In this document: positions 13,595 to 44,922 of the stretch, piece by piece
How the letters are laid out: every line of letters begins with the position of its first letter
Position numbering within the stretch: the stretch's first letter is position 1
Source: Hygrocybe punicea
Lineage: Eukaryota > Basidiomycota > Agaricomycetes > Agaricales > Hygrophoraceae
Assembly (NCBI GenBank): GCA_963556145.1
Contig: OY744472.1
Span: 5,518,001 to 5,582,000, forward strand
Length of the DNA: 64,000 nt
Reading direction: 5' to 3'
Made by a program: the position numbers and the translations under genes
Notes under the pieces: model-generated
What the model was told of the DNA's origin: nothing
What the model saw: the letters and a program-made list of their open reading frames with translations, nothing else
Databases searched by the model: none

Positions 13595-13808
13595 TCTGAT
13601 AACAATATTGTCATACTATTCCTGTAGCTATCACATTGATATTTTAAGATAAAGTCATGTAATTCTGATAACAATATTGTCACACTATTCCTGTAGCTAT
13701 CACATTGATATTTTAAGATAAAGTCATGTAATTCTGATAACAATATTGTCACACTATTCTTGTAGCTATCACACTGATATTCTAAGATCATGTCATGTAA
13801 TTCTGATG
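13595..13808 (+). repeat. Tandem repeat, three copies of 69 bp
   Basis: Copies start at 13595, 13664 and 13733, each opening TCTGATAACAATATTGTCA. Copies 1 and 2 are nearly identical and copy 3 has several changes. The apparent minus-strand ORF across it is a product of the repeat. Confidence 0.9.
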
Positions 13809-23011: not shown

Positions 23012-23212
23012 TAGTGTTGCCTCAGACCGGTCGACCAGGAAAAGCTGATCCCGGTTCTAAACTTTTGATGCACAATCAGGGGTTTCCTAGGCTCTTATTT
23101 TGTAGCCCTGGTTGAGGGCTACAAAATAAGAGCCTAGGAAACCCCTGATTGTGCATCAAAAGTTTAGAACCGGGATCAGCTTTTCCTGGTCGACCGGTCT
23201 GAGGCAACACTA
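23012..23212. mobile_element. Perfect palindromic hAT MITE (201 bp)
   Basis: Two 98-bp arms (23012-23109, 23115-23212) are exact reverse complements by my reading, separated by the 5-bp loop GGTTG. The ends are TAGTGTTGCC...GGCAACACTA. It is flanked by a perfect 8-bp duplication ACCTGACA (23004-23011 and 23213-23220), the size expected for hAT elements. No coding capacity. Confidence 0.95.
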
Positions 23213-23239
23213 ACCTGACATCAGGAAAACGTAGAGACC

Positions 23240-25035
23240 CTGGTAAGGCCTGGCGGAGTTGACAATTGCTAATCAGCTGTCCAGCCACAGATCTAGTATT
23301 ACCCTTTCTTACCTTGACACAGAATTATTTTAGGCTTAGCTCATGTAATATCATCCTGGTAAATGAATAACTGTTGTTACCATTTCAGTGCTGGAACGGC
23401 AACATTTTATCATTTACTGGTATAATGATATAGCCTTTGTATGTCCTTATCATAGTGTGGCAGCATTCCTGATTCCTGGCAGTGCATGGATGGGATTACA
23501 ATGGCCTGGCATTAATTTAGAATAAGCTCATGTGAATTCATTCTGGCCAATAAATATCTATTATTATTTCATTAGAACCTTATCAGACCACGGCAAATCA
23601 GCACATTGAACTTGTAAATGGATTTCCAAAGTCATCACTACTAGTACTACCGAGGAACTGGTGGAATTACTCCTGCTCTAGTTCAGTGCCTTGTTCCTTG
23701 GCTAGTTGTGCCCCCGCCCTCCGCCCCCTCCCATCTATCTAACCAATGACTGACTCGGATAACTTGTGCAACAGGCTGAGCTTCTCCTATTTCTGTAAGA
23801 GGATGATCAGCTAAACTGAAAAAGGACTTGAGAATCCCTACATCTTTCGTTTCCTTGTCTAGTATATCTTAGACAGCAGTAAATTCGGCAGTGGTTGTAT
23901 GTGGGTGGTCCTTTATGTAGTCGGCAGTGTAGAGGTTCCTAAAAAGTCCTAGTTTGCACCGCAAAACAGGTGCAAGCCCAGAGCACAAGCTTTGGCCCTG
24001 CACCCCGAAGTCTCCTCGTCTGCTCGCAACATGGATGAGCGTTCAAGAAAACTACAGGATTCCGAGGCACAGACACGAGAATGGAGAAGCCCACGATTGA
24101 CACGGCTGAAGGAATGGTGACAAACAGGCTTGTGCCGGTGGGTGGCATTGAGAGGAAGAGGTTTGTTGGGCCGGAAATGTATCTGCCAGTTGTGCTATTC
24201 CATTGTGGGTGAGTATGACAAGACAAACCGGATATTGCAGGGCTCCAAATGCACTCACCAACACGTAGAAGGATCCTTGCAACAATGTGAGTATGTACTG
24301 TATGTATGTATGCTCGTGTCTGGAGATTCGTCTGTAAACTTTGATGTTAGTGCGTTTTGTGGCTCTTTGGCGTTGTTATGGGTGGCTGCGTCCTGGGCAG
24401 TTGGAAGTGAGCTGAAGGGCAAGGTTATCATTATAATGGATTTGGTGGACCTTCCTCAGAGCTCACCCTTACCGTGCATCCTGAATGCAATACTTGCCTA
24501 GTGTGACCTGGTGAACTTGAAGTCTATCTGGAGGTGGGAGTATCGGAAAGACTTGAGAAATTCTAACCCGGTCCTACTATAATGCCAAAACTCACAGCCA
24601 GTGTCATCAACATGTAAGCATGCGTATTTGACACAAAGGATATGTTTGATTATCTCGCACGACACAAAAAAAAACATACCTCTGATTAGATAATAATGCT
24701 AAGTCACTACCGATCTAATCCAATGGACTGTCAATTTGTTGCTTAAAGCCGTGATCCATTTTGATCATATGGGATTGTCACTAGGGGGTGGTGTTGACAA
24801 TTGTAATTCCAGTTGAGGGAATGAACTTACCATAAATGTTGCTGTGGGGCTCTAGCATGCGCGTGAACAATTTCCATCTGAGCAGTTTCCATTTGTGCTC
24901 GCGTCAGTTGGTGGTCCATGCTGTTGTTTTGCAATATGTTAGAGAGTTTGTATCATGTATATGCATAGTGGTTAGTGCGCGAGGAGTTGACTGACCTTGT
25001 CCTGGTCTTGGGGTGACTTAGATACATATATTCCG
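23240..25035. other. Left interior of the 19.3-kb insertion, no gene assigned
   Basis: Mixed AT-rich sequence. A minus-strand ORF at 23939-24226 has a hydrophobic segment (SLFVTIPSAVSIVGFSILVS) that could be a membrane-protein fragment, but I recognise no family. Elsewhere I see no coding pattern. Confidence 0.3.
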
Positions 25036-25406
25036 TAGTGTTGCCACGGCTATAGCCGATGTTTTTTGAAAAATTGCCTTTTTAGGCTAGTAAAATTAGG
25101 CAAAATTATGAAAATATTTGAGAAGATGGGCGAAGCCAAAAGCTGAGGGGTCACTTAAGGGTGCTAAGGATTTGGGGCTCAATTCTCAGGGTTCTTCAGG
25201 GATAGCTGTTGGATGGTAGCTGGCTAGGCTCAACAGCTATGGTTGAATAACTCTGAAGATTGGGCACCAAATTCTTAGCACCCTTAAGTGACCCCCCAGC
25301 TTTTGGCTTTGCCCATCTCCTCAAATATTTTCATAATTTTGCCTAATTTTACTAGCCTAAAAAGGCAATTTTTCAAAAAACATCGGCTATAGCCATGGCA
25401 ACACTA
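25036..25406. mobile_element. Foldback hAT MITE (371 bp)
   Basis: Ends TAGTGTTGCC...GGCAACACTA, with arms of about 148 bp that are near-perfect reverse complements. The flanking 8-mers ATATTCCG (25028-25035) and ATATTCCA (25407-25414) differ at one base, as expected of a somewhat older hAT insertion. Confidence 0.9.
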
Positions 25407-25512
25407 ATATTCCATTATGCACATAATACAAGCAAAACAAAGAGTGTCAGGACTAAACAGCTGGGAAGTAGTTCTAAGCGCTTGGAAACTCGATTGAAAG
25501 AATACAACTTAC

Positions 25513-25830
25513 CATCCAAGTCCAAAATCGAGGCCCAGGTCTAATCTTGCGATCACAGTGTCATGATTCTGCTGGAGATCAGCCAGCTCGACTTCCAACT
25601 CCTTGATCTGCCTGTTTCGACTTCGCAGGACATCACGCAATTTTGTCTGGAAGTCGCTCAACTGGCGTTCTAGGTCTACAACATTTGTAAGCGTTTGTTC
25701 GGGATAACGTCAAGTGGTTACTTACCCATAAGGTTGGGGCCAGGAGGCAGCTGGCCATGGATTTGGTAAATAGTGGTGTTAATTTGGTTGCTGGCAACAC
25801 TGTTGATCGTGCTATGATTGAAGCGAATGT
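25513..25830 (-). CDS. Small coiled-coil orphan gene or fragment
   Basis: Two exons can be joined on the minus strand: about 25830-25726, and 25675-25513, with intron GTAAGT...TTGTAG. The first encodes a T/N/Q-rich segment with INSVASNQINTTIYQIHG. The second is a heptad-like coiled coil (LERQLSDFQTKLRDVLRSR) ending GLDLGLDFGLG-like before another GTAAGT donor. Start and stop are not defined. I know of no function. It lies just downstream of the carrier pseudogene. Confidence 0.4.
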
Positions 25831-25940
25831 GTCAAGCAGTTATGATCATGGGGGAGGTCATGGTGATGGAGTAAGATAGAGTTGGTCGAGTTTAGATACT
25901 TTTAGGCAAAAATGTAAATCTATCTAGAAAACGTTCTAAT

Positions 25941-27233
25941 TCATTTAAGAGTAGTTTCGTCTGCCCGTGTCTGTGCTGCCGTATGACGCAACGTCAGTTC
26001 AATAGATAGAAAATGGTTACCCCCACTCTCCTCCTCCAAGACCTCGCGCACTCGCATGGAACCAACCCCGGCCGCTTCCAGAAGCGTTCCAATGCCTCCA
26101 ATGGCACCTCCGATTCGTGTACGCAGGACCTGAAAGCCCAGTCAAATTGATGGCTCACGGACAGCAGAATAAAGAGAAAGTTAGCGCACCTCGTGTGGAT
26201 ACGTGATAAGACTCACAACAAATTTGGCTGTCCCCGCGCTACCCAACATCCCTACCCACTCCTGTACTCCACCTTTCCCTTGTGTTGGGGCAGCAATCAT
26301 TTTCAACCGCTCATATAATACCCACTGAATTGTGCCTTCTGTCACACCCAAATAGCTCGCACTAAGGCCCTTATAAAATCCTTGAATGCCCTCCTGTCGC
26401 ATAATCTGCTTGATTGTCGTCCAGCTACCGCCAAACATGTCTGTTCTGGATGTAGAGCTCCATAGTAGGTTGGCTTGCAGGTGCTTAGAAGCGGAGAGCT
26501 GCATGCGAGTCTTGACCACCCATATTGGATTGGTAGCTGTCCCAGTGATGATACCTGCGAAGGCAGCGGCGATGAGGTGCATGTAGCTGTTCTCATGTCC
26601 ATGATTAAACTGCTCCGCGATCATCTGCTTCCCATTCCCGTACGTGAAGAAGTTGATGGATCGTGCTGGAACTATGCCGACAAGGGTTGGCCAAGACCTT
26701 TGAAGAGTGCGCGGGGAGATTCCTCTTGATATATGTCACTGCAAGGCAGAATTTGAAGACCGTTGGGTAAATAAGTTTCTGGGGTGACTGACCGAAGGAT
26801 ATGTCCGGTTTCAACAAAATTCCACAGTAGACCTGCGCGTCGTTGGATAATAACTTCTCCACTTCCTACTACACGGAACTTGGCTTGTTTTTCTTGGAAA
26901 AGATCAGATTGCAAGCGTGTCTTGACCACATCAAATGGACTCATGACAATAGCACCACACATGCCTCCGAGCCTTTGTAAATTAAATCGGGTTTGTGAGA
27001 ATGAAAAACATCAGCACTGGAGCACAGAACGGAAGAACTGACACATACCCGCCAGCGACGAAGTGATGCCATGATTTGGCGGGGAGAAAATTGGTTGTGA
27101 CAGGTTTCAAGCCTGCGGGCAAGGCATCTGGCATATCTGAGATATCAACACAGAGTTCTCAGCAGACCGGGGCTGAAGAGCAATCAAACACTTAACCAAG
27201 AAATTTGGCAGACTCGACTAAAAGCAAAATCAT
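25941..27233 (-). pseudogene. Mitochondrial carrier (RIM2-like) pseudogene
   Basis: On the minus strand the copy contains all three carrier signatures: SPFDVVKTRLQ (repeat 1), NPIWVVKTRMQ (repeat 2) and YPHEVLRTRI (repeat 3, assembled across an intron). The NPIWVVKTR and QWVLYE-type motifs resemble the pyrimidine-nucleotide carrier RIM2. Start MILLLVESAKFLD at 27233 is in frame with ESAKFLDMPDALPAG. Four introns with GT...AG can be placed. One C is missing near 26690 (GGCCAACCC where GGCCCAACCC keeps frame), shifting the frame between RALFKGLG and GIVPARSINFFTYG. After YPHEVLRTRI the sequence no longer resembles a carrier and stops at 25941, so the last transmembrane helix is absent. It is probably a captured host gene in decay. 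Confidence 0.85.
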
Positions 27234-27249
27234 CAGCAAAAGTGCATTA

Positions 27250-27715
27250 TCTAGGCCTTGCCATGTCGGACCAGTAAGCTCCGGCCCTATTGGTCACACC
27301 TCTCATGGTCAGGAATGGTGGCGAACATCCTAAGTGTAACTATGTATTCTATGGCAATCTGGGTGGGAGTTGGGAAAGTTGGTGGAAGTTCATTCAGGAA
27401 CATTCACGTTCAAGGGCGAATGGCCAGGATTGGCCTTGGTTATGGCATCTGCTGCCTGGACGTTAGGGGGGCTGCAGAAGGTTGGGGTCTTTTTCTGTGT
27501 GGTGACAGCAGTGGGGGAGTGGTCCATGTTTGTGTGTGTTTCCCGAGGGGAGGAGTAGATGTGGTGGTGGATTGGTGGATGTGGGAGGTTTGTGTGCGGC
27601 GGAAACTTGAGGCCTCATCTGGATGCATTTTTAATTACCTTGAACGCTGACCGTTGCTTATATGTTAAGTGTGAATCAAATACCTTGTCTGAGATAACCA
27701 AAAATTGACCAATCA
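27250..27715. other. Spacer between carrier and Plavaka pseudogenes
   Basis: No gene recognised. The ORFs here have low-complexity Gly/Val or Pro/Thr content on opposite strands and look like chance frames. Confidence 0.4.
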
Positions 27716-27722
27716 TACAGTA

Positions 27723-30700
27723 CTACTCGTAAAACTCATATACCTGAGAGTTGCCATACATCTCCTCCATATCTGAAAGCCCAACTTCACAATCCTCCTC
27801 CTCCCGCTCGAGATCACTACTTTCAGAGTTGTCAGACTCGGAGGTGCGGTCAGATTCTTCTTCATTGTGAACTTCAACGCAGTGAAGTTCGGAATCTACA
27901 ATTGCAGTGGAAAAATCGTTGTCTTTGCATATTGGATCTTCATCGTCGCTGTGAGCATTGCTGTTTTGGTCGCTGCTGGGTTGGAAAGAGTCATGACCAT
28001 ATACATGCCCAACTGCCAAACCCCAATGATAATGCGTGACCATATCCCGATCAACAAAGCTAATGATCAGGAAGGAATTAAAAAGATGCAGCAAGTTATC
28101 AGTGATGACTCACCGATTGACGTAGTATTGAACCCAATCCTTTGCGTTTCGAGCACATTCCAAAATACTGTCACGATCCACATGCCACCTACCCGCTGTA
28201 AAAGCTTGAATCAAATGGGCACCACATAAAACATTCGCAGGATCAATGAAGCCAAAGGCTCCTTCCTCATTCATCGACGGAAATTGCAGACGATCAAGCT
28301 GCGACCGCATCCAGCCCATCTGCACTGGTGTGTTGTCCAGGTTCTCAAATGGTCGAACCCATAGAAACTCCATCCACCAAGCCCGATAGTCCAACATACC
28401 AGGTCCGGTATATATCACATTCACATGGTAGATGCCGAGAACATGAGCGTAGATATACTGATGAATCGGCAAGCTAGCTTCTTGGGAGGAGAGCAACATG
28501 ATATCGCAGTGATCTGTGTTAGGGTTTACGTTATCTTGGGCCCGTCACACGTCATATGCGGTGTAGTTTATTCTCATAATATTGTGTCTGTATATGCGGT
28601 CACCTTTGAAGTGGATGCCGTTCAGCTCACGTGTGCTGTCTGCCAGAGTAGAAGAACAGGGTTGTCGCGGTTCACTGCCAGCTTGTATCTCAGCATCCAA
28701 AAGTGCTTTGATGTGAGGTAATAGGTGTGTCTTCAGCTTTATCCAGAAGTCCTGTGAAGAGTTGAGCTGCTATATTAATTCCCGATGATGGACGCAATCT
28801 ACCTTAATAGCTGGATCCCCATCATGCGCACACAAAAAAGAGCCAATGTGCTCTGGATGGTTCTCGGAGATGCCGATATGATGATGGGCATCAGGGTGTT
28901 GTGACACTCGTTCTTTGCTTGCAGCCCTAGGAAACGCTCCAGCTACTTTTTGGCGAATGAGTCTGAGACAGGCTTGTCTACGCTCAACGCGAGCTAACTG
29001 TCACACAAATTCTTTTTTACTGGTCCGCTTGAATCGAGACTTGGGATTACAATGTTCTAGTTCGCCCTGCAGTAGTAGAAGAGATCAGGTTGATGGTCAG
29101 TGGAGACGAAGTAAAACACTCACGATTTCTGAAGTGTACAAATCTGTCGTGCCATATCTCTTGATGGCATCTACATAGTCACCCAGAGCATGGGCCTTGT
29201 AGGTCTGAAGATTCAGCGTTTTGGGTAGGCGCTGGTTAGCAGCTTCTGGCTTTCGCTTGCTGGTTGTTGGCAGAGAGGAATTAACGTCATCCCTTTCTTG
29301 CTTTGACGGCATTGTCTAGCAGCTGCTTCGGACTTCAATTCACGTGTCTGAAAATGGTGGCAGGTTTTGGATTGGAAATTGCAAAGCTGTTGTCCCAGGA
29401 TAGTCGTTTCATGATCGAGAATAGAAAGTGTGGTATCGGTGTGCATTCGCAGTTTGGCTAACCCGTGCCAGTGGGCGAAGGTGAAGAGGAGTTTCAGGAT
29501 TCTCCCGTTATGGGGTTCTGGTAATAGACCTTCAAAAACTGGAATTGCACACTGCCTCCTGCTTAATTTCGATGTTCCAGTGAGATAATGCATTTGACAT
29601 ACCTGCAGAAAATCCTCAAAGTTTCTGGCAGCCATTTTCTTCAATTCTGATGTATTGGAAGTGAAACGCCTAATTGTGTCCCTCCCAAAAGTTGGAACCA
29701 ATCGAAAACTGTGTGCACCATTAGAGACACAGTGAAATATACAGGAACTACCTACCGATGATCCAGTTCATGCAGGGCGTTCTCATCGGCACATTTGAGG
29801 ATTCGAAAGAGGTGGACCAATAAGGTCTTCCATACCCCAAGTTCGATCTCATGCATCAGATCAACCAAAAACATCAAAAAAAGATTAAATCCCAATTTAG
29901 AGAGCCATTCAGAGAAGGCATTCTACAGAGGAATGTTCCGAGTAAGAATCGCAAAGTCCAAAGTTGAATAACCTCACCAAGGTAGGAACAAGAGACTGAG
30001 GCTTGAGGATTCATTCTACAGGGGCACTGTCAACTGCGTAGTTTTTCTGATAGATGGCATTTCGAGCTTGGGTGACCATGAATTGGCGTTGCTCATCATC
30101 CACGCAGGCCAACTTGATCCTGTTGTGCTGGTCCTTTTTGGTGCCCACCATATGCACATTTGACAATAGTGTGGTGCAACATGGGCATGGACATGGACCC
30201 AAATTTCTGATGCTGGCTAGAAGGATCCTATTGTCTGCGAGTTAGTAAATCGGTAGCATAAAAAGAGAACCATTCACTTTTCGGGGTAGTCTGCCGAGTA
30301 TGTAAATATCCGAGGATAAAACCTGCGCAACACCCCATCGCAGCACTCGATCATGATGCCATGTTCATAAGCTTCTAGGAATTCATCATCAAGGATGATT
30401 TTCCACTGGGCGTGAATGCATTCGTGATGGCAGTGAGTCATGAAGGTGTTTTTCAGCTTCTTTGTGCCAGTATACTCGCTCGCGAAATCTTTGAATGAGT
30501 CCAGGAGCTAACCGCGAATCAGTAAGGAATATTGAGGAACATGAAAAAGTCATACAGTCTCGAAATAGGCCACATGTTCGCATACATTGCACGAAGGTTT
30601 ACACCGTTGATATTTCGATTTGTTTCCGAAGAACATGTATAATGGCCAAAGTTTTGTGTTTCCGAAATTTGTCAAATGAGTTGAATCAGACCAGAACATT

Positions 30701-31974
30701 AATGCAACGACAATGCGTGGAAGATCGCAGCCAGGTTCCAGAGGAGAAATTTGCAGGGAACAATGAGCGTTGATGAATGCAGGTGATGTATACAGTTCGC
30801 CATGGACGCGCACCTCTTGTGAGTTGTCAGTTGGCTGCCAGACAAGCTCATAGGGCTCGTAATGGAAATGGCGATAATCGATGGAATTCACAAGTTTTTC
30901 CGGAATGTCCAATATCAATGATCGATAATGGAAGGTTGCAGCAGTATAATCATGGGCACCAGGCCTATCTGTGAAACAATGGAAGGGTGCTGATATTGTT
31001 ACAGGCGACATCCTCCACCCAGCATCTTCATCGATCCACTCTTCCTTGTCCCAATCATTAAGCGCTAACTGGTTGTTGATCCTGTCCCAATTTGTCTTTT
31101 GGACGTATGTAGGTCTGAAATCATCATCACCCACAATAGCGAGGAGCTCTTTGAAATCCTGCTGAGACTTCTGGGCACCCCGATTCCAATACCAATCACC
31201 TAGTAGAAAAGAGTTCTGGTTTGGATAAGGTCAAAATGATGGAAGAATATCAGGGGGGTGTGAATGAGCAGAACTAGAGTCGATTATATCGGATAGAGAT
31301 GATACATTGACCTCGCTTTCTGGATCATGAGATGGAAATGTCTCGGCGAAGTAGTGACGAAACAGGCCAAAAGAATTTCTTGCAGTATTAAGGATTCAGC
31401 AAACAGGTGGATTTCCTGATGCTTTACCAGTGCTACCATCGCGGCTGTGTTGGGAAGTCAAGATAGGATTCATCAATGAATCCAATGAATGAGTCGCTGA
31501 GTCCGGAACGTCCATACCAGGTGGTGGTAGTGCAGGAACTGGCTGTGGAAGAATATCTTTCAGCCTCTTATCATGCAATTTAAGACCCACGACATGAAAA
31601 CGAAGAGGAAGTTTGTGACGCCTTGTGGGTCTTGCATCATCCTGGATTTCTGTCATAGCTGAGGTTGGATCCTGCAGACCCATGTGAATGGTGACATTAG
31701 TATGAAGGACTGCCATGGTTCCGTACCTGAACATGCCCGGGCTCAAGCTGAAGATTCTGACTGATATCGTTGTCAATGGTGTTCGCAAATGACTCCATGG
31801 TTGTATCTAGAGTGATAGCCTTCTGCTTTCTGACAGCTAGAACCTCCTTTCCAACACATGGAACAATCGTTTCTTGGTTTTCTTACAAATGTTCTGGTGA
31901 TTCTTGAATGCCCGAACATCTGAAAATGTCCTGCCGCAAGAACAGGTCTGGCTGAATGCAGAGTCCCGATCCAT
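27723..31974 (-). pseudogene. Plavaka-type (CMC superfamily) DNA transposase, multi-exon, decayed
   Basis: The gene reads from MDRDSAFSQTC at 31974 with a C2H2-like start (CSCGRTFSDVRAFKNHQNIC), typical of Plavaka N-termini. A core follows: PFHCFTDRPGAHDYTAATFHYR, FHYEPYELVWQP, VALMFWSDSTHLTNFGN and LYMFFGNKSKY (30550-31134), then CPCPCC, a QNAFSEWL-type segment near 29900, CAIPVFEGLLPEPHN (about 29540), LQFPSMNEEGAFGFIDP (about 28250) and DRDMVTHYHWGLAVGH. The C-terminus is acidic and stops at 27723. About ten short introns are implied. A frameshift near 31845-31850 separates KKRLFHVLE from EVLAVRKQ, so this copy is probably inactive. Plavaka elements are an established fungal clade of CACTA-like transposons. 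I could not assign its own terminal repeats unless they are those of the 19.3-kb insertion. Confidence 0.88.
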
Positions 31975-31989
31975 TGGACTCTGCTATGG

Positions 31990-32580
31990 GCTGACGATAT
32001 TACTAATAAAAATATTGGTGTTAGAAAAGATCCAAGCGTAGGCAGATCACTTACCCAAAGAATGATAACATGTGCAAGGAATCTCTTGGTCAAATACGCT
32101 GGCTCAGGTAGTGGTCACGAAGAAACTAACTTAGTTTGTTCAACTGAGTTTCAATGTGGATGTAATATACGAATTGTCAAATACAAGAGCGTAATAAGTG
32201 AACATAAAGAACGATGAATCATGAACCGCTGTGGACTCTGGCACCATGCGCTAACCGAGACTATGAGTCAATGCCCCAGGATGTTTTTCGTTCAGAAAGC
32301 ATCGACAATGTCTGAGAAAAATAATCAACATGAATGAACATTAGGGGCATCAGAGTCATATTAACGAACCTCAAAGGCTCATACATTCCACTCCATCAAC
32401 ACAACCTTTCAGTGTTGCCCACTTTTTTTGAAGCGAACGGGCATTCCATAAGGTGCCATAGGAATCTGTGAGTCAGCTCCCGTTGATATCTGCATCGATT
32501 GTGACATTCATTGCATCGATGCTGTTGAAGTTTAAATAGTTGGAGATGAATGTAGGCGGAACCAGAAGACTGAACGTGAT
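31990..32580. other. Spacer, no gene recognised
   Basis: Between the Plavaka start and the Reb1-like gene I see only short chance ORFs and no repeat. Confidence 0.35.
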
Positions 32581-32584
32581 TTTA

Positions 32585-34041
32585 TTATTCATTATGTACA
32601 AGGTTGGAGGCATCTTCATAGGACCACTTCGGCCTGGTACCCCCATTTTTCATGATTTTTGTTAACTCTCTCCTAAATGTAGACAATCAGTCAAAGCAAC
32701 GTCTTCATTAGAATAATTGACCATTTGGAACTGCACTGCTGTCTTCCGTGTCTGTGATTCATCCGTTTGCTCACTTCATACCAGCTGATAGTGGAGTCAT
32801 TGATGAAGTTCTCGCTTAGTTTAGGTGTCATCTCCATCATGATCCTGGTTAAATCTTCTTCTTCTGCCTTGGTCCAGCGACCTAAGAAAGTTAGGATGAG
32901 TACATTGTATAATAGAGCTCTCGTTACTCACCCTTAGCTCGCAAGTCACGATGTTTGATATGATTCCTGTAGCGGTCCCGGCAGTCGTTACTGGACCTGC
33001 CAACCTTGTGACTTACAACCTCCCAATGTTCACCATGCTGATCCACAGCTCTAGAAAGTCATTCAGCGCCAGGCATAAGATAAGAAGAAAAACCAACTGG
33101 ATTAGATCCATATCTTCATGCGGCAACCAAGGACCTTGTTTACTGTAGGGTTGACGCGATCTACGAACATGCCGGTACACAGCCATTAGAGAACGATTTG
33201 GGATGGCAGAAGCTAGCAAATTATTTTAAAAGGGGACTTGAGGGGCAAGGAGCTAACTGGCGATTATACCTATGGCTGACCAGAATTCATCATCGCGGCT
33301 GGTGGCTTCTTTCGGAAATATTATTCATAATAACTGTTGAGAATTGATGGATTTCTGCTATGAGAAGAGTTTCAGGGTTAGCTTGTGAGAGTTGAAGACA
33401 ATCGTGAATTCTGGACCGTTTGGTATGCTTGAATGGCCACTTCCACCATACGGGTTTCATCCGCTGAAAACTTGCCCTTTCGGTAAACGAGACCCTCATT
33501 TCGAGCTAAGTCGGCTAGTTGCTTAGGAGTTAGCCACTTCCTCGTCAACAACTCCACATGCTCTGGGGTGTTTTCTTTTACTGGACAATCGATAATTGCC
33601 AGTGGTTGAAAAGCGCCGTCATGTGGTAGTGGGATAATAGTATCATTCGTGTTACAAACCGGTCTTCAAAAATTTTGCTCACCTAAGTCAATGCCTGGAT
33701 CATGTACAACTGGACTGCCTCCAGCTGTATCACTGCTTTCTCCACGAATGATGAACCCTCTGTCCTTTGCAGGAGACCAACTTGAAATTGTGTTAGACTT
33801 AGTTTTGGCCTCAAATGCAGCATTGGCAGCTAGCAAGACAGCCTCAACAAAGGGGATAGATTCCATTTCACCTGACAGGCTCAGCGTCACGGACTTGTAA
33901 CTTTGCAACTTGATCTTCTGCGCGTAAGGCCTCAGCTGAGTGCCACTGAGACGACGAATGAGCTATATTATGGTGTGCTGTACTCACTTCGGCGTCCAGT
34001 ATTTCTTCCCATTGTCTACCCATGTCGCCGTCAGACTGCAT
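32585..34041 (-). pseudogene. Reb1/TTF-I-like Myb DNA-binding protein, probably degenerate
   Basis: Starting MQSDGDMGRQWEEI at 34041, the minus strand encodes a linker, then LTPKQLADLARNEGL and RKGKFSADETRMVEVAIQAYQ, the segment that precedes the Myb repeats in Reb1 and TTF-I. Then come a DDEFWSAIASAIPNRSLMAVYRHVRR block, KQGPWLPHEDMDLI, GEHWEVVSHKVGRSSNDCRDRYRNH, and GRWTKAEEEDLTRIMMEM, spread over several short introns. The gene ends ASNLVHNE at 32585. In yeast and mammals such proteins bind DNA to terminate Pol I transcription and shape chromatin. The reading between QAYQ and FWSAI needs an apparent CGA-to-TGA change near 33325-33330, so the copy may be broken. It is adjacent to and co-directional with the SPT5-like gene. 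Confidence 0.72.
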
Positions 34042-34254
34042 GATGGAGTGACTAATTTGTCTAAATAACCGGGAAGTTTTTGATCACGGACTACAACACT
34101 CTACTTGATATTATTCCAAGTCTCACTCAACGTATATTGTGTACAACCGAGTTTGGCACATGATCCTGGAAATGCAATGTTACCTCAGGGCATCTCTTGT
34201 AAAACTCCGCTATCCTCAGTGTCTCCGCCTACTACTCCTATCTCCTATCTTGTA

Positions 34255-34818
34255 AATAATGATGTACTATCTCAATCAGATGGATTGCTTTCAACTCGCT
34301 GCTGTTCAGAATTATCTTTTCCAACATCCTTTCTTCAAAGATGATTATGGGCTGGATCCCACTATAGTGAATCTTGAATCTCCAACATGACCAGGAACTG
34401 ATAATGATTGTTGTAGTTTATCCATACGAGCCAAACATCTGAGTTCCAGCAATCTTTAAGCAAAATTTCCCAGAAGAAGCAGACTATGCGCACTACACTA
34501 GTGCAGCAGCTGGATGAATTAATGAAAATACAAGACCAACTTGTTATGGAGGAATTCAGAATCGCTGGGTCTCGGGGTGGGCCAGTACACCATGACCTTT
34601 ACTGGCTTTACCACAACACAGAGCCACCTCCCCTTCCTCTCAACCTCACTCCCCATGACCTCACAATCCATCTTGAAGTTGGCGCTGGAAGTTTTGGACA
34701 TTTCAGTCAGAAGGGGAAGGACGCATTGTTGAAGACATCACACAGCCAAGAGGAGGAGGATCTGGAAAGTGAAGAGGAGGTATTTGGGACTTTTTCGCAT
34801 AGTTTCCAACAAGGGTGA
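34255..34818 (+). CDS. Hypothetical plus-strand gene fragment
   Basis: A first segment, MMYYLNQMDCFQLAAVQNYL, ends at a stop near 34390. A second frame (34486-34818) encodes LYWLYHNTEPPPLPLNLTPHD and an acidic Ser/Glu tail. Whether an intron joins them is uncertain. I recognise no family. It lies between the Reb1-like and SPT5-like genes on the opposite strand. Confidence 0.3.
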
Positions 34819-34990
34819 CTCGCTTTTCTGTTGCCCTTCAATTTTTTGAACTACAAAATTTTTGTTTTCGTGCATGTAATGTTATTCCACGGCCTGTCAC
34901 ACAGGTTTGCGATTTAAGATTGGAAAGAAAGGATTGAATTCATGATACTATCAAATTTGTTAAAATTACGAGATGCTCACGTGGAGCGGT

Positions 34991-37694
34991 TTATGAAGGG
35001 CAGCGAGAATTATCTAATGGCGCCAAATGCCACAGATATTCTCCGGCTTCCACAACGACTACATCTACTCCTTGATGATCTCCAGCAATACAAACCGTCT
35101 TTTCCTTGGCACCCCAGGGATGTACTGGTTCAAGGTAACGCAATGGGATCAGAACTGTATCAGCGCCCGGAATCATCGGCTTGATCTCAATTTCTGGTGG
35201 ATCACCACTGACAGGCATGCCCAAAGTGCGGGCAACGGTGCCTTTGCTAATACGCTTTCTCCAGCCACCCAGATTTCTGTTGAAGCCTGATACACGCAAT
35301 TTGATCGATTTTCCGTGCAAACTTTGCATGGCAAGCCAGTCTTTGTGGACACCTGTGCAAAGGAGTCAGTGCAGGGGAAATGTGACAATAGTGGAACAGT
35401 ACCCGACAGTAAGGATACCCCTCTTTCTTCTATATCGTTGTTTATCACTTTCCCTGGCCATTGTATTGAGGGATCCTGAGAGCTGGGTTCCCCACGATTT
35501 AGCCGCTCCAAGAGGGCTGTTGACAGAGAATCTCGGTCTGGCAGTGGTGTTCAGGAAGAAGGTTCCCAAGCAGGACTTCCACCCCGGGCCGAAGGAGATT
35601 CCCACATGGGCGTTGAGGGCCTGGGAACAACCGATTCAAGGGATGGTAGCAATACCGGCTGGGAAGCTTCTGGCGGGGCATCCTGAAAATAATATAACAG
35701 CCTGCGATTCCTGCATCAAGCAGAAGTCAGGCACCTTATGGAACAGGAATATAAACATGAGTTTTATGATATCTGAACCAAGAAGTCTTCTTTAAATTGC
35801 ATGACTTTGCCATTAGCATCCATGCGGACATCATACATTTTGAGATGTTCATGGGTGTGTATGATGGTCCCATGATACCCACAAAATTTATTCAACCCCA
35901 CCGCGAGCACCCTCTTTCCGGCTACTGGATCTTTGATGGTTTGCATGATGGGGCATTGGATAATGGTTCTGGCCAGGGGCCTTGGTAAACAGTTCTGCTC
36001 CACGAAATTGACATGGAAGGCATGCACTTCTATATGATCGGGAACCGAATGAACGAGGTTTGACTGGTCAAGACGACATCAACAAGAGAATCTACATGGG
36101 AGCAATGCCTTTACCTCTATATTGTTAAATCGCAAGTCAGCTGACGCCATAGTAATTTGCAAAATGTAATCGCTAGACATGCCCACTATAAAACCCGATT
36201 TACCAGCGTGAACGCCCAGTTGTACACGAACGTAGTCTCCAACACTGAAAGATTTATGAATCTGATGTGCTGGAACCTCAACTAGTTGGTCCTTGTTCAG
36301 AGCATCATTGTCGTCTTTGTGCAGGTGCACTTGCACTGAGTTGACATCCTTGGAGGTAATAATACCGCGAAGTCCTTTCAGCTCTCCTTTAATAATTTTG
36401 ATGCGATCGTTAACGCTCAATGAAGCAATGGTGTCCTTGACATTCCACCAATGCCTGGCCACTTTACACCATCCTGAACTTGTGTTGAACAATTTGATCT
36501 CCTCAAAAGCAGGACGGACATTCTTTGTGTTCAAGGTGTGAACATTAACCCATCGTTCCAAAAAGCCATCCTTAAACTTCATCCCCTGGAATGTGAGCCA
36601 ATCTTTGCCCTGTTAAACAGCTTCGGTACCAAAAATGTTGTGGGCTTGGTTGGCATCAAACAGCACGGGAAGAGGATGAGTTTCCGGTAAGCGCTTGAGA
36701 TCCTTGGAAGGCTCGAGGTAGGAGAGGCGAGGCACAAGGAACACTTTAACCTTGGCACTGTATGTGACCACCTCCGTGACATAACCAATATCCCCTTTGT
36801 ACGTGCCACTCCTGGTATGCACCCAGTCACCTTCGGCCACAGTCATGGCTGAGTTCACTGTTTTCAACTTGAGAAGTTGCACGCGCTCAGGCAGGGGCAT
36901 GAGGCTAATTTCCCGATCAACATAGACTATGTGCATGTGTGCAAAAGCACGTTGAATATCCCCAGTACTTGGGGCTGCAACATAGATAGCGCCTGGAATG
37001 GATGGTCGCCAGAAGGTGGAAGCAATCGTCAGACTCGAGCCATCAGTGCTGCCACATTTGCAAAGAAGAAATTCCAGGCAATCCAACTCCAACCCACGCT
37101 ATAACAAACAGCAACGTCAAGTTGAGTAGCAAAGACTTATTAGACCACTCACCTTGACGCTAATGCACCAAAGATTCATGTCTCCGGCATGAGGTTCATT
37201 GAGAACCCGCAATTGAGTGTCGGGAGTTGAATCAAGCGTAGTAGGGACGACACTATTCCGTTGATATTTCTCTTTGAGCCACTCCACCTGGCTTGCCAGT
37301 TCTTCGTGCTTGTCCCGAAGTGAATGTTGATAACTTGGCCGCTGGGCCCAGAAACGCTCGGTTGCGAGCGGTGCAGACTCCGAGTCGGCATCTGACCCTA
37401 GATCCATAAAGTCCTCAAATTGCAGAGGACGAGATGGGGATGATTTACCAGGCGACTCTGAGCTCATCTCTGAATCATAATTTAAATTCGAATCCATGTC
37501 CGTGTCCATGTCGTCGTGGTCATGCGCATGCAGGTCCAGGAATTTGGTGACACTATTATGCTAAGAACAAAGGTTCAAGCACTGGAAATGGTCCTGGGCC
37601 GCATTGGTATGCTCACCGTGACCTCTGAGTCCAAGTTGTAGCCCACCATGACTCTTCGTTGTTTGTAACCACCTTTGCAGTAATTTGAAGTCAT
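34991..37694 (-). pseudogene. SPT5-like transcription elongation factor (NGN + KOW), degenerate copy
   Basis: The gene begins MTSNYCKGGYKQRRVMVGYN at 37694 with an intron after SEVT. An acidic, Ser-rich N-terminus follows (37117-37509). Next is an NGN-like domain (about 37080-36830): ASTFWRPSIPGAIYVAAPS, HIVYVDREISLMPLPERVQLL. KOW-type segments follow: GDWVHTRSGTYKGDIGYVTEV, FLVPRLSYLEP, DRIKIIKGELKGLRGII, GDYVRVQLGVHAGKSGFIVG and GKRVLAVGLNKFCGYHGTI. The C-terminus has an S/P/R-rich linker and a last block ending EYLWHLAPLD. This is the architecture of SPT5, which with SPT4 clamps RNA polymerase II. An in-frame TAA at 36613-36615 interrupts the NGN/KOW junction, and I could not splice the 36.1-kb intron in frame. 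It is unlikely to be the cell's essential SPT5. Confidence 0.82.
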
Positions 37695-38138
37695 GATTGG
37701 TGCGAATTCACAATTGGGACGTTGAATTACGAAAAATAATTGTACTAACTACTAGACTGCTAGACTACTAGAGTTGCGGAAGAAAGTGATTGACTATCAT
37801 TTAGCCGAGAACCATAGCTGACACCTCAGGGCGGTTTCGAACCCGTTTTGGTATTCGGGGAAACCTGACCAGAACCTGCCCTCAGGTGAGCACTATAATA
37901 ATACAAACAATGCCACGACTTGTCACTACTCCCATCCCAATTACTCTAAATTTGTAGTAATGTTTAATTGCTAGTACAAGCAAGCTTTAGTTAAATTTAG
38001 TCGCTTTATTGAAGAATGTAATAAGCATTGAAGCAAAGACAAATCGGAATTATGCCATTATACCATCATTATATCCTCATTACCCCGTTATATCATCGTT
38101 ATATCCTCATCACCCCGTTATACCATCGTTATGTCCTC

Positions 38139-39640
38139 ATGTCTGATCTCGACCTCAATTGCGACGACAACTTGAATGATCTCCTTACTTTCTTCCACCC
38201 TGATTGGGTAAGTGATTCAGATGATATGCCATCCTCAACACTCACGAAATGAATGCATCGCCGTCCTGAGACTAATCTTTCCCTGAATTCACTCGACACG
38301 TTGTCATCGCCGTTATCGGACAATCACTTGCCACCTTTTGTGCAAAGCTCAACCTCTTCACTCGTGCCTGTCTCAACTGCGGCCTCCTCATCATCCTCCA
38401 CGCAGGCCCAGGTACTTGACTCACACACAACATCGGTCACGATCCCCCACACTTCCGGATTTTTGCTGCCTCCGGTGATCCTCTCCGATACCAATCTCGT
38501 AACATTCCAAGATGTTCAACACCATTACACCCGCATCCCCATACCTGCATCTCCGTCTTATCGAGATGGCAGTTTTACCACCGCGCTAACCTCCGAAGAC
38601 GTTGCTCAGTCATCCGATTGGTTGGCACTCGTGCAAGTGGCAAAGGGAACGTATGAAGTTGGCATCCCATGTTATTTGTGGTTTTGCGGCAAGGAACAAC
38701 GACTCCTGAATGGACATCAGGAACTATTTGTCTCAGCATTGTATCTTCATCGGTCTCGAGGCGAGCCCTACTGGCAGCCACTATATGGTACGTTACATTT
38801 CATTTTCACGACTTGTATTGATTTGTTTTTACCAGACCAGATGGATAGCAGACTGGGACATTATGTCAGATTCGGTACGGTGGAATGTCCCCACCCCGTG
38901 ATCCTCAAAGAGGTAAGTAAGCATGCTGTACTAAGTTGTCTTCAACGCTTTTTTTCTTTTTTTTGCAGATTACGGCCCATCAACGGATTCAAAACGCCAT
39001 TAAAACGCACATCATTCCTCGTATCCAGGGTGGGCATTATGGACCTATGGATAGTCTTCGGCAGGTATCCTGCCTAGATGAGCCGTCCATATTCGTAAGT
39101 CGCCTCTTAACTGTCCTAGTATCCCTCTAATTATACCATTCAGAATGTCGTCCCCGCTGTCAATTTAGGGGGTGTCATTGTCTTGGATATTATCACTGTA
39201 ATATTTCTTGGCCATGGGAATACGTCTATCCGTCCGTACTGGCTGTTTAAACAGGATGGAAAACCGAAGGTCCCCCTGAATCTCGTCCAAATAGCCAGAC
39301 TTTTGGTAAGTAATTTTTCTCAGCAGCTTGCAAGTAGAACTAATTTACTGCAGGCAATCTGGGCTTGCAACTGTGCACACGCCAACAAAGCTCTCAAAAT
39401 GAACTTGGCATACGAGCACATTTTCGATGATGTGGGTGTTCTTATTTGCCGGTATCTTAGTTACCCAATGACCGCGTCCATATATTACGGTTTGGATGAG
39501 TATTGGGTTAGCCACGCAGGTATGTGGTACCAAGCCGTGTAGATTTTGGTTTCAGTATGCAATCAAAATATTTTACACTCCCGGACACACATCGTGCCTG
39601 CAGCCGAGGTATTCTGGTAAGGATGGTCGTATGGGGAAGT
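38139..39640 (+). CDS. Orphan multi-exon gene (unknown)
   Basis: Start MSDLDLNCDDNLNDLLTFFHP at 38139, divergent from the SPT5-like gene. A Ser/Thr/Pro-rich region follows (38253-38500), then YEVGIPCYLWFCGKEQRLL and HRSRGEPYWQPLYG. Further exons, separated by GTACGT...CAG, GTAAGT...TTGCAG and others, encode RWIADWDIMSDSVRWNVPTP, ITAHQRIQNAIKTHIIPRIQ, LDIITVIFLGHG and WACNCAHANKALKMNLAYEH. Clean introns and a consistent coding pattern indicate a real gene or recent relic. I do not recognise a family and offer no function. It is part of the cargo of the 19.3-kb insertion. Confidence 0.5.
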
Positions 39641-39699
39641 CGTGTAATTGTATGTTAAAAATACATGTTTGTTGTTACTTGTGAAAATAATTTAAGTAA

Positions 39700-40556
39700 T
39701 GTGTTGTTTGCAAGGCCATTCGAGGTGGAAGTCGGTGTGCTTCTCTTCTGGGATATACTTCCAGGCAAGCTCCCCAATGTACTCTGCCCTCTCCAGCTTC
39801 GCCTCACAATCTATGAGTTTCAGGGTCAGCACTTGAATGTCTTCTTGTGCGGAGTGGAATTCTTGTTGTGCTTTCAGGAGTCATTCATTCGTGTCCCTGA
39901 TCTTGGCTTCTACACGGCGTCGGTAGGACCTTTCATTATTAGTGAAATGAGAAATGATGACTGACCATTGTGACCTTCCATAACAACAGGATCGTTATCC
40001 CCTTCGTCCATCGTGCGACAAGCCTTTTTCTTCCGGATGACCCTGAGATGATACTCGATGAAGAAGTTCTATGGTGTAGGGAGCAACACACCTCACGGTT
40101 ACTTCAATATTGTCCTCGTTACGTCGTTTGGCGACTTGCTTTTCGGAGGTGGGCATATTTTCCGTTTCAAAGTCATGTCTAATAACTTATCAGTTGCCAG
40201 GAGCTACTAGTAAATTGTCAGGTGTGTATATTTGTGCATATTCAACACCCACCAATAATGCATTACATTTTCTGAGGTCCGTCACAGTTGGCGGAGTTCT
40301 ATTATGTATCTCGACATTAATCTCTGCCAGATTTCATTTCCAGACGACTGTTTATAAAGGCTGCAGTTTTGGCAAAGATCATCTCATATCCTCCTCTATC
40401 ATCAGATTTCAAGCTAGGCAACAAGGTCTGGGATGGAAGCATCGACTGGTCGGCGGGTGCAAGATGATGCACTACAAAGCGGCCCAAGGAAGAAAGTGTT
40501 AGCGATCGTTGAGTATCCTCGTCGTGCCTGCTGACATGATTAAACAGTGCCATCAC
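39700..40556 (-). CDS. Orphan minus-strand gene with coiled coil (uncertain)
   Basis: The minus strand encodes FVVHHLAPADQSMLPSQTLL near 40450. Further down (about 39730-39960) is a coiled-coil-like stretch with EFHSAQEDIQVLTLKLIDCE, ending in a segment with AWKYIPEEK. The parts lie in different frames and their introns were not resolved. It lies convergent to the orphan at 38139 and divergent from the gene at 40541. Function unknown. Confidence 0.3.
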
Positions 40557-41772
40557 CGATCCCCTGGTACATCACGGCCATCACTTCGGTTGAGTGTCTT
40601 ATGCATTCTGCAACGTCAAGGTACTCATCACAAATGGCCTCCTTCACTTGGCAGAGGAAGACGTAACACCCCCCGAGACAATACGGTAAGTGCTCATGCC
40701 AGGAGACAGACAATTTAGTTCTCATGTCCATGTTTCTGGAAGCGAATGTCGTGAGGATAATTTGTTTCAGGAATTGCTTAAGATTTGTGTTGGCCTTGAG
40801 GAACGGCTTTTATCTGGAACTGACGAAGAGGTCAAGTTTGTTGCTGATATGGTTAGTAAACTGTCTTCAGCCATCTTATGGTCATCATACCTGCCATCAT
40901 TTAGATACAGAACGGAGCGTGCGCTGATGACACCAAAACATTGAAATTTGCGATTATTGATTGGATTACTCCGCCAGGACAGACTCTCGCTCCATCCCTC
41001 AGTCGTAAAGTCAAGACGACTCGTGGGTTCCACCACGAGAGAACGGGCGCCTTACTCTGCTCTGCTGGAATAGATTGGTCTATACCCAGGTAAGCCACTT
41101 TTGTGTGGTATGACATTGTGGGCTGAAACTACTCCCAGTGTCAAAGAGAAGCTCCACAGTGGTGAAACACACATTCGTGGTGACCAATGGCCCATCTTTC
41201 TATATGCTGACCTTGCGTATGATCCTGACGACCCTTGGAATGGATTATTGAGGAGTCAGCTCCTGGTTGCGGTTAGTTTTCATTCTGTCGTTTGCTTTCT
41301 ATTCCTCACGTTGGGTGACATAGGGATTCAAACATGTCTTTACCTCGCCGAGTTCAGTTGACGAGGATGAACAAAAAGCTACACGATCGTAGTCTCGCTA
41401 ATCTTCAATAACGCTGTCGCTGACGACCTTGTAGGTTCACTTCACCTTGTGTTCTTCAAGCACCTTCTCGTGTACAGATCTTGTCACCGATTCTGAGACA
41501 TTCTATAACAGTGTTCTCGACCTACTCGATGATCCGGAGGAGAAGGATGAAGTGCAAGACCTTTTAAATTGGTGGAATAGGTGAGTGAATCTTCATTCCA
41601 CCTTTGAATGTTGGTTCTGCACAACATTCTAACAAAGGCTTTTTATAGGAAAATCTTCCCCCATGCATGCTCTGACGCCAAAGTACCAATTGAAGGAAGC
41701 GCTCTCTCTCGCATCAAGGAGAAGAGGCACGCAGATAATATGTTCACATTAGGCGACATGAATCCTGAGTAG
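40541..41772 (+). CDS. DUF6698-like orphan protein
   Basis: Exons in order encode LFQELLKICVGLEERLLSGTD, then NGACADDTKTLKFAIIDWI with PSLSRKVKTTRGFHHERTGA and LLCSAGIDW, then SVKEKLHSGETHIRGDQWPI and FLYADLAYDPDDPWNGLLRS, and finally TVTD/DSETFYNSVLDLLDDPEE and LLNWWNRKIFPHA, stopping at 41772. Introns are short with GT...AG ends. The combination 'ADDT.LK', 'RGFHH...LLC' and 'YDPDDPWNGLLR' is a pattern I know from a large family in agaricomycetes that I believe Pfam calls DUF6698; its function is unknown. The start is uncertain and I did not verify every splice. It is the last cargo gene before the right end of the insertion. Confidence 0.6.
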
Positions 41773-41775
41773 AGT

Positions 41776-42076
41776 ATCAATTGGTCGGGAATAGTTCATG
41801 TGTGACGCTGCTTTGTATTTTCTCATTTTTCGCACGTTCACCAAATATATGTTTTTGCCTTCTATTTCGGATATTCCTGGAGTCCAATATGAGAATATTG
41901 CTGACTTCCTACCAACATGAAGTCATTGCTACATCCCCTATCATCAGTATATCAGCCATGACAATATGATGCATTAGTTGCTACATGAGCAGAACAGTAT
42001 TTCTGTGTGGTAAGGAGCTATGGTACCATACTGTTGTTGTGGTAGCAAATGGACAATAACTCTCTTGTTTTGGCTA
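41776..42076. other. Non-coding stretch before the right-end tandem repeat
   Basis: AT-rich sequence with only a chance ORF at 41781-41969; nothing recognised. Confidence 0.4.
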
Positions 42077-42346
42077 TTATGACTTTTATTCAAGCAAAGT
42101 TCAGATTCTACAACTCTGCTATATATGGTGGGATTCCTTCAACCCCACCATGACCTTCCTTTTCTTGGAGGAATGATATTCAAGGACACGCCTTGTTGAT
42201 CCATGGCACAGTTATGACTTTCATTCAAGCAAAGTTCAGATTCTACCACTCTGCTATATATGGTGGGATTCCTTCAACCCCACCATGACCTCCCTTTTCT
42301 TGGAGGAATGATGTTCAAAGACATGTGTTGTTGATCTATGGCACAT
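42077..42346 (+). repeat. Two-copy tandem repeat, period 135 bp
   Basis: Copies begin at 42077 and 42212 and share ATTCAAGCAAAGTTCAGATTC, TATATGGTGGGATTCC and TTTTCTTGGAGGAATGAT with about ten differences. The pair lies about 150-420 bp inside the right end of the 19.3-kb insertion. Confidence 0.85.
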
Positions 42347-42499
42347 CAAATATCATTCTACTAATTTGATTGACTTCTACCATCACAACCATGCCATCCC
42401 TACCTAGATCTAAGTGTGAGCATAATGTCAAACAATGTTAATGATTGTGGGTCAGCTCAAGGCATATATAACCATCTCATATCTGGGTTGATTCCCTGA

Positions 42500-44922
42500 T
42501 GGAGTTGAAGCAACCTCAGCAAAAGCAAGCAGAGTCACAGCAAACACAAAGACCCCCCTTTAAAATCTCAGCTGCCAATAGTGTTGGCCTTCCACCAAAC
42601 CCTTCTACTAGTTCATTTACCCCTACCAATTCATTTACTCCTTCCAATGAACAAAGAGGACCCATGACCTGCTATGGTTGTGGAGGACAAGGACATGGAA
42701 TGCAAACATGTTTCCAGATCAATGAATTACTCAAGACAGGCAAGATAACCAAGGATGGTCTTGGAAGGATTGTTTATCCAGATGGCTCAATAATTTGCAG
42801 AAATATGGGTGAGACATTTGTACAAGCAATTGATAGACATGTAGCTGAAAAGGCCAGCAATGTTCAATCACACTTCTATGTATTATCAGATCAATTCTCT
42901 GATTACTATCAATCTGATGCTGAAGAAGATTTTGAAGCATATACTATACCTACAATTAAGGAAGAAGAAATACAAATCCTGCCTGCAGTCAGAGGACCAC
43001 AGAAAATTGGTGCAGCAAGGAAGGAAGTATTAGATGGAGTATATCCTCCCACAGGTATTAAAGCCAAAGGAAAAGAGAATATAAGGCCCAACACAGTACT
43101 ACCACCCATTCCTAAAGGCCCAGTCAAACCTGGCCCTCTTTCAGCACAGAAGCAAGCTCAAGCACATATACCAGCACCATTACCCTTTGCTCTTAAGAAG
43201 ACAAACCCATTTCATCCTACAGAAGAACTGCATGCAAAGCAACCTGTTCCAATGGATATAAGAACCCCAATGCATATTCCTTCAGACACAGATTCAGATG
43301 TGGAAATGATAGATACTTCTCCAGCAAAGCCAGCAAAGACTCATATACAAGGACACAAGGCACACATAGATAAGAACAAGATCATGGCTGAAAGACATAA
43401 TGCTATAACTTGCCCAAAGCCTGCACCTAGACAATCAGAAATTTCAGTCAATATTGGAGAAACTCAAGTTGTCAATCAAATCCTTGACACACCAGTTACC
43501 CTGCACGTTCGTGAAGTATTAGCTTCTTCCAAGGAGTTATCTGAGCAGTTAACAGACATGATCAAGAGAAAGAATGCAAAGGTATCTGCCATTGCAAGCT
43601 CATTCATAACCAAGGATCGTGGAGTGTTAATCAGGCTTCAGATGGAATATGATAGAAGACCTATTGAAGCCATCATTGACACTGGATCCCAGTTAAATTT
43701 GATTAGTAAAAGAGTCTGGAAAGAGATTATCCAAAGACCTATGGATGTAGGAAAAATTCTCACAATGAACGATGCTAATGGAGGTGAAGGAACATTAAAA
43801 GGATTAGTCTCAGAAGTTCCATTGACTTGTGGTGGTGTCCTCACTTATGCCAATCTTTATATAGGAGAGACAGTGCAATTTGATTTATTACCTGGAAGAC
43901 CATGGCAAAGAGGCAACTATGTTTCTATTGATGAAAGAATAGATGGTACATATTTAGTATTCAAGAATCCTGAAGATTTGACAAACAGATTTGAACTAAT
44001 GGTCACACCAAACTATTCTCAAGTTAATCACATCAAAGGAGCTACTACTGCCCATGCCTCAACATCCTATTTATGCACTTTACCTATGGAACTTGAAGAA
44101 ACCACTATAATTCCTTTAACTAAGTCTTATGAACAAAATAAGGCATTAGTCTGCTATAATCCGCAATTTCAAACTCCGCTTAAACCGAATTATTTTTCCG
44201 AAATGATTACATGCTTACAGGATAAGCCTTATTTGGATAAGGATAAGTCTGAAGTAAAAGGAGATAAAAGTATCTCATGCTTTAATATCCCCAAAAATGC
44301 ATATGATGGCTCGAAACTTTTTGCATTGTCCATAGCCCATTGTGATGACATGAACAATGAAGAATCTGAATTTTCTGAAAGGAGAAAGATAAGAAATGGA
44401 TTTTCACACCAGGGAAATTTGGATAGGAATTGCTATAAAAACTCTGAAGAAATAGGAAAGACAGTAGCCATGTCTGCTGCACAAACCCCCCAGATCCCAC
44501 CTTTTATGATCAATAACCATCCTCTTCCTCTCCCTGTAGAAGGGATCCACTCCAATGGTCATCCAGATGCTGGCCGACTTATCACTTCCTTTTTAGGAAA
44601 TTCCCTTGATTACCAATCCCCCCATTTAAGTAAATTTTTGATTGCTGCCACTGTAGGATATAGGCTTTCTCTGGGGATTGATTCCCTTGGTGATCCTTTT
44701 GAGCATGGAATGTTGTTAAATGCTTCTCTAGCTACAATTAATTCTCCGAGTGTCCCCCCCTCTTTGAGAATGGGACATCTAGTTTTTCAATTTTACCCCT
44801 TTGCTAACCCTTCTACTGAGGAGAACTTTTCTCCTCCCCCTGTCCCTCCTCCTTACATAGAGGATTTTTATTCATTTCCAGTGACCCTCGCATGTGCCCC
44901 GGAGATATTATTCCACCCCTAG
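42500..44922 (+). CDS. Gypsy gag C-terminal part with zinc knuckle and aspartic protease
   Basis: This is the right-hand part of the retrotransposon gag that starts at 22017. The open frame of about 800 codons starts ELKQPQQKQ and carries one CCHC knuckle, CYGCGGQGHGMQTC (about 42670-42711). A long Pro/Lys-rich linker follows, then a retropepsin-like domain with active site IIDTGSQLNLISK (DTGS at 43678-43689) and DLLPGRPWQ further on. The apparent ATG at 42499 is composite: its A belongs to the 19.3-kb insertion. Unlike the left half, this part has no stop. No reverse transcriptase follows; the element is cut off before 45641. The frame ends at 44922 in a Pro-rich tail. Confidence 0.85.

Follow-up and report, generated by a model that had tools for sequence, protein, structure and literature searches.

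A giant transposon, probably of the PlavakaB lineage, with a conserved Spt5-like gene and captured host DNA in Hygrocybe punicea

We describe an element of 19,283 bp that splits a retrotransposon gag frame in a 64,000-nucleotide stretch of the Hygrocybe punicea genome (contig OY744472.1, positions 5,518,001 to 5,582,000; hereafter the window). It is very probably a decayed giant cut-and-paste transposon of the PlavakaB lineage, with a conserved core of three genes (a Plavaka transposase, an Spt5-like gene, and a DUF6698 gene) and captured host DNA near its 5′ end.

RESULTS

Borders of the element

The features that define the insertion are the following.

23219..42501, plus strand: whole element, giant and putatively PlavakaB-type, 19,283 bp, termini CATCAGG and CCTGATG, placed by shared ends and empty sites
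23217..23218, no strand: left target-site duplication, GA, placed by empty sites
42502..42503, no strand: right target-site duplication, GA, placed by empty sites
22018..23009, plus strand: left gag part of the split retrotransposon; its frame is disrupted, and its start was taken from the sequence
42504..44922, plus strand: right part of the gag frame, with DUF4100 and gag-asp_protease matches, both under the Pfam cut-off

A first-pass annotation of this DNA had proposed that a single unit of about 19.3 kb splits the gag. This was borne out; the ends recur elsewhere in the genome, similarly spaced and identically oriented. Its borders, 23221 and 42499, needed correction. The empty site was sought by aligning gag relatives, nine of which were examined among the 29 gag matches listed, and all nine read CACCT-GA-GTTGAA at this site in the alignment. 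At about 96% identity to the window gag over 99 bases, these copies are relatives and not the same allele as the window's. Because the empty copies read CCT-GA-GTTG, the element must run from 23219 to 42501 with GA on each side, and because they lack CA and TG, these bases are the termini of the element. The join CCT GAC ATG GAG, previously read across the gag, is contradicted by the same nine relatives; it kept the frame only because six bases had been added.

The earlier proposals for the ends, TC...CTGA between A and T or CAGG...CCTG with an AT duplication, both fall on the empty sites. The first corresponds to a Helitron, a rolling-circle element that would run from TC to CTGA, between A and T, and be free of duplication. 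The ends and flanking bases do have this form, and host gene pieces such as those inside the element are frequent in Helitrons. However, the nine empty sites lack CATG and show GA duplicated, so the gag site is not that of a duplication-free insertion between A and T; the empty allele would be CCTGAGTTG under the GA-duplication reading and CCTGACATGGAG under the Helitron reading. Other copies have GG, TA, AA, and GCT duplications, and no Rep/helicase was seen among the open frames scanned in the element, in a scan that was not exhaustive. We therefore rejected a Helitron, which has practically no chance of being right given the target-site duplication and the place of CA and TG inside the element.

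The genome searched comprised 92.2 Mb in 42 contigs. End queries from the window gave 32 element-side 5′ matches and 11 element-side 3′ matches listed, the window included. Among the 31 other 5′ matches fetched, 28 have CATCAGG, one has CATCAGA, and two lack the terminal 25 bases; among the 10 other 3′ matches fetched, eight have CCTGATG, one has CCTAATG, and one is interrupted, its real CCTGATG end having been located afterwards. The bases beyond CATCAGG and CCTGATG differ between copies. Searching the genome with the termini at matching distances and aligning the ends of several copies, both suggested by the first-pass annotation, yielded paired ends in other copies and defined the termini and short duplications. 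A direct duplication was found in 5 of 7 end pairs: GA in the window copy (W), GG in copy B (contig C1), TA in copy E (C33; true 3′ end located by pattern), GCT in copy D (C39), and AA in a sister-family copy on C3.

Class of the element

PlavakaB elements have been described with termini 5′-CATCA..TGATG-3′ and duplications of 2 or 3 bp (Kojima 2025, PMC12730594). The window element and other copies end in CATCA..TGATG, their duplications are of 2-3 bp (GA, GG, TA, AA, GCT; 2 of 7 pairs match crosswise only), and a minus-strand open frame in the 27.7-31.8 kb interval matches PF18759, the Plavaka transposase, above the Pfam cut-off. On these three features we would assign the element to the Plavaka class, as PlavakaB-type. 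The transposase inside had been called Plavaka-type, correctly in light of PF18759. The class had been called unclear and perhaps new; it appears to be a known one, and the newness is in the gene content and the defined giant copies.

Copies in the genome

The window family has six copies of 19-31 kb (W and copies A to E; A and C are on C39) with both ends in common. Copies A-E align with W collinearly, block by block at 85-99% identity. The excess length in the larger copies consists of blocks unmatched in W, which we read as later insertions. The family has eight close 5′ ends (93-100% identity), and in six cases a 3′ end is in place.

A sister family, 86% alike in its first 346 bases, looks like a giant element that has recently undergone a burst. 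One member compared with four others over 9.7 kb gave identities of 99.1-99.97%, and 18 of 19 5′ ends pair with their own 3′ region in the right orientation, the end at C34:1666868 having no partner in orientation. Four pairs are 25,518 bases each, and the 18 copies total 520 kb; the last 128 bases were extrapolated from the C3 copy in 17 of the 18. The C3 copy has no transposase match, and an open frame of 549 amino acids without stops is found in 13 sister-family transposase matches.

Core genes

The window element carries the following genes and repeats outside its captured DNA.

27723..31806, minus strand: gene for the Plavaka transposase, made up of several exons and bearing in-frame stops in the window copy
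33381..33962, minus strand: open frames that separate the transposase from the Spt5-like gene, family unassigned
34991..37560, minus strand: Spt5-like gene, extent approximate; NGN-KOW1-KOW2 core at 36079-37098, one in-frame stop here
38253..39542, plus strand: open frames of 274 and 140 amino acids, family unassigned
40905..41772, plus strand: DUF6698 gene (PF20414), exons
42077..42345, plus strand: pair of direct repeats of 134 bp close to the 3′ end, 93% alike, present in other copies too

PlavakaB transposases have the motifs D, D, E plus C(2)C and H(3-4)H (PMC12730594). By eye, FWSD, SADYPEK, and CPCPRC could be read in the copy A transposase, in agreement with D, D, and C(2)C; H-H and E were left unassigned. 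Over the frames of copy A, the window copy has 2, 0, and 1 in-frame stops in the three transposase segments. The ratio of nonsynonymous to synonymous substitution rates (dN/dS) of these segments among copies is 0.29-1.34, on small counts.

The Spt5-like gene is best seen in copy A, where an intact frame of 339 amino acids matches NGN, KOW1, and additional KOW domains and can be aligned with yeast Spt5 of solved elongation complexes (E 1.7e-31). Thus NGN is followed by KOW, and the closest solved relatives are Spt5, as in the Spt5 family. The AlphaFold model of a 91%-identical database protein, P0001, is of modest confidence (mean predicted local distance difference test score, 71.6; predicted template modeling score, 0.45). 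In a Foldseek search with this model, Spt5 chains rank first, with a whole-chain template modeling (TM) score of at most 0.38 and a TM score of 0.82 for a KOW1-linker target. A tree of 16 proteins places A, B, and the database proteins P0001-P0003, which may lie inside or outside elements, apart from canonical Spt5 (100/100, with long branches flagged). A long spliced Spt5-like query gave four matches, three of them named spt5 of Serendipita, with the best 7993 candidates scored. The Spt5-like gene has one stop in W, none in A, B, and C, three in D, and one in E.

Transposase, Spt5-like gene, and DUF6698 form a syntenic core in both families and in more distant ones. Gene neighborhoods were counted on 13 long contigs with a 20 kb radius and 1000 random trials, second exon matches being collapsed (79 of 82 Spt5 matches used). 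A transposase stands no more than 20 kb away from at least 53 of 77 Spt5-like matches, where random placement gave 4.6 on average and 11 at most; for DUF6698 the count is at least 51 of 77 (random mean 4.2, maximum 11). The Spt5-like gene stands between transposase and DUF6698 in 43 of 44 triplets among the matches listed; one of the 43, at C6:5010681, has DUF6698 on both sides and counts against the order if the nearer is taken. No DUF6698 match among those listed lies within 20 kb in W or copy B, though W has the gene. At least five identity classes pair a transposase with an Spt5-like gene, with identities to W of about 92-100/89-100, 65-68/41-43, 69/50, 68-69/31-34, and 62-63/23-25% (transposase/Spt5-like). 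Seen from the transposase, 51 of 133 matches have an Spt5-like gene nearby, among the matches listed; many Plavaka copies or fragments are without a recognized Spt5-like gene.

As a separate observation, the genome has at least 273 DUF6698 matches, and 59 of 113 lie within 20 kb of Plavaka genes among the matches listed (random mean 6.8).

Captured host DNA

26181..27134, minus strand: captured RIM2-type mitochondrial carrier gene, introns kept, frameshifted and short of about 60 codons at its end

The carrier scores best against RIM2 proteins of Agaricomycetes (68% for Serpula), and about 60 final residues are lacking relative to Serpula RIM2. A GT..AG intron of 54 bp is kept, as is an apparent one behind residue 30; these introns show capture at the DNA level. 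The sister family holds other host pieces, namely two of CAND1 (residues 150-278 and 338-453, 1u6g numbering) and part of an SNF1-like kinase. The captured pieces sit in a variable segment between the core and the 5′ end, and intron-bearing host pieces lie within the element ends, as in Pack-type elements. In a genome search for the carrier, a limited first look, no native host RIM2 was recognized. A RIM2-like match on C35 was considered as the host source and rejected: element flank adjoins it (92% over 201 bases), and it looks like another element fragment.

A working carrier gene would suit a Starship-like cargo carrier that helps its host. A feature of Starships is a DUF3435 tyrosine recombinase near one end. 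The large size of the element is in keeping with this, as is the carrier frame, which is long in copies B and E. Yet the gene is truncated and keeps its introns. Copies A and C have broken versions of it, D shows no match to it, and its dN/dS among copies is 0.56-1.87. No DUF3435 captain was found among the open frames scanned, a scan that was not exhaustive. We rejected this explanation on the truncation of RIM2 and consider it very unlikely.

Decay, nested insertions, and a related short element

Three smaller elements bear on the history of the window copy.

23012..23212, no strand: later palindromic miniature inverted-repeat transposable element (MITE), putatively hAT-like, 201 bp, exactly on the left junction
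25036..25406, no strand: second palindromic MITE, ends TAGTGTTGCC..GGCAACACTA like the left-junction MITE, putatively hAT-like
13488..14497, plus strand: 1010-bp non-autonomous PlavakaB-like element, ends CATCAGG..CCTGATG

The left-junction MITE has an 8-bp duplication, ACCTGACA (23004-23011 and 23213-23220); that of the second MITE is ATATTCCG/ATATTCCA, alike at 7 of 8 positions. The two nested MITEs and the further inserts in larger copies are what one would expect if stepwise insertions had built the interval in place, with the Plavaka gene one guest among several. Against this, both ends and the internal order are common to five other copies at other sites, and the MITE at 25036-25406 is absent from copies A-E, as a late insert should be. 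Assembly in place was rejected on these copies and seems to us most improbable; a single transposon with later inserts is the reading we retain.

The window copy is decayed. It differs from A, B, D, and E mostly by transitions (transition/transversion ratios of 5.8-11.5). CpG context accounts for 66-82% of these transitions, a share that suggests methylation and deamination of cytosines in the past.

The first-pass annotation had seen a related start near 13490. This is real and belongs to the 1010-bp repeat, which has the same ends and scored at 40 places, the window's own included, with 97-100% identity (40 of 113 candidates scored). This short family may be mobilized in trans.

Elsewhere in the window, a frame of 565 amino acids at 60733-62430 has a hAT dimerization region (PF05699), and a long retroelement frame at 4832-7906 has reverse transcriptase, RNase H, and integrase domains.

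Evidence at odds with this reading

Several observations do not sit easily with a cut-and-paste PlavakaB transposon and its three-gene core. For end pairs A and C the direct comparison fails (TC/TG and TG/TC) and the duplications match crosswise only, and the flanks of the 1010-bp element in the window are mismatched (GC versus TG). Two of the eight close 5′ ends of the window family have no 3′ end found, and four of ten near-identical 3′ ends have no 5′ end found, six being paired. As for the core, 25 of 79 Spt5-like matches have no transposase within 20 kb, among the matches listed; some of these may be solitary, host-type, or missed. Same-family copies make the synteny counts non-independent. 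Finally, the Spt5-like dN/dS in the window family is 0.30-1.05 on small counts, with little purifying selection, and the dN/dS of this family is of limited use because so large a part of the transitions is in CpG context. Such weak selection is as expected of decaying copies, and also of a passenger.

Copies A and C face each other on C39, about 4.7 kb apart, with their 5′ ends inward. The segment between them (C39, ~3744525-3749180) appears inverted. An inversion there would explain the crosswise duplications.

DISCUSSION

We infer that the Plavaka protein, a DDE transposase encoded by the family itself, recognizes the CATCA..TGATG termini and moves these ends. A unit of about 19 kb would then have moved by cut-and-paste into the retrotransposon gag, duplicating GA. 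The variable segment by the 5′ end holds host DNA taken up at the DNA level, here the truncated RIM2. The Spt5-like protein may aid the element's own transcription, as a dedicated elongation or anti-silencing factor.

That leaves the question of whether the core genes other than the transposase matter to the element. It is a real possibility, if short of an even one, that the transposon is a Plavaka element in which the Spt5-like and DUF6698 genes are old passengers with no role in transposition. The near-neutral dN/dS of the Spt5-like gene among window-family copies would fit this, as would its occurrence away from any transposase in the matches counted above; the RIM2, CAND1, and kinase pieces are clear passengers. 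However, the gene order is kept where transposases are 57-69% and Spt5-like proteins 23-50% identical to the window's, with many frames open. Passengers differ between the two families examined and the core is constant, and in the tree, with its long branches, the element Spt5-like proteins stand apart from canonical Spt5.

The element resembles PlavakaB of Agaricomycetes in its termini, 2-3 bp duplications, and Plavaka transposase (Kojima 2025, PMC12730594). PlavakaB belongs to the CMCT clade, and some of its elements carry a TET/JBP accessory gene (PMC12730594); inside 24 paired elements we found none of the 96 above-cut-off TET/JBP matches (122 genome matches in all). Unlike PlavakaB as described in the main text of PMC12730594, which has no occurrence of Spt5, the elements here are 19-25.5 kb, with an Spt5-like plus DUF6698 core and RIM2, CAND1, or kinase pieces. 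In the open-access literature searched, no paper was found on Plavaka and Spt5 together, none on Spt5, transposon, Basidiomycota, and transposase together, and none naming DUF6698.

Giant size with Plavaka has precedent in the "Plavaka giant repeats" of up to 50 kb in Amoebidium, according to passages of PMC11244446. Those repeats differ in being tandem clusters of intron-poor genes with many tyrosine recombinases, and the same passages mention neither termini nor a duplication nor Spt5. Enlarged En/Spm elements of 16-20 kb with four or five open reading frames, in Chondrus crispus, are cited in a passage of PMC6431247; these are also enlarged DDE elements with extra frames, of the related CACTA group, and differ in their red alga host. 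Pack-MULEs and other gene-capturing DNA transposons likewise hold host gene pieces between their ends, as outlined in PMC6431247, whereas the capturing elements here retain a transposase and other core genes. The efficacy of DDE transposition is stated in PMC6431247 to fall above 6 kb of cargo. The elements of about 25.5 kb recently moved whole, in 18 paired copies, and are well over this mark.

A further parallel is bacterial. RfaH is a specialized NusG paralogue that activates xenogenes in Escherichia coli, as described in PMC7593976, and it would resemble the element protein in being a specialized copy of a NusG/Spt5 elongation factor. One can envision, as a tentative and rather unlikely extension, a major mushroom DNA transposon lineage whose own specialized Spt5 would load onto RNA polymerase II and drive transcription across long methylated element DNA, as a eukaryotic counterpart of RfaH on xenogenes. 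This might let a cut-and-paste element reach 25 kb, gather host genes, and still burst.

Plavaka, its termini, and giant repeats are already known; the surprise is the Spt5-like core gene, whose role we can only propose. Complete ends, duplications, and gene content are now defined for giant Plavaka elements in a mushroom. The finding points to an Spt5 paralogue conserved among the genes of a transposon and makes it testable whether a transposon may counter silencing with an RNA polymerase II elongation factor of its own.

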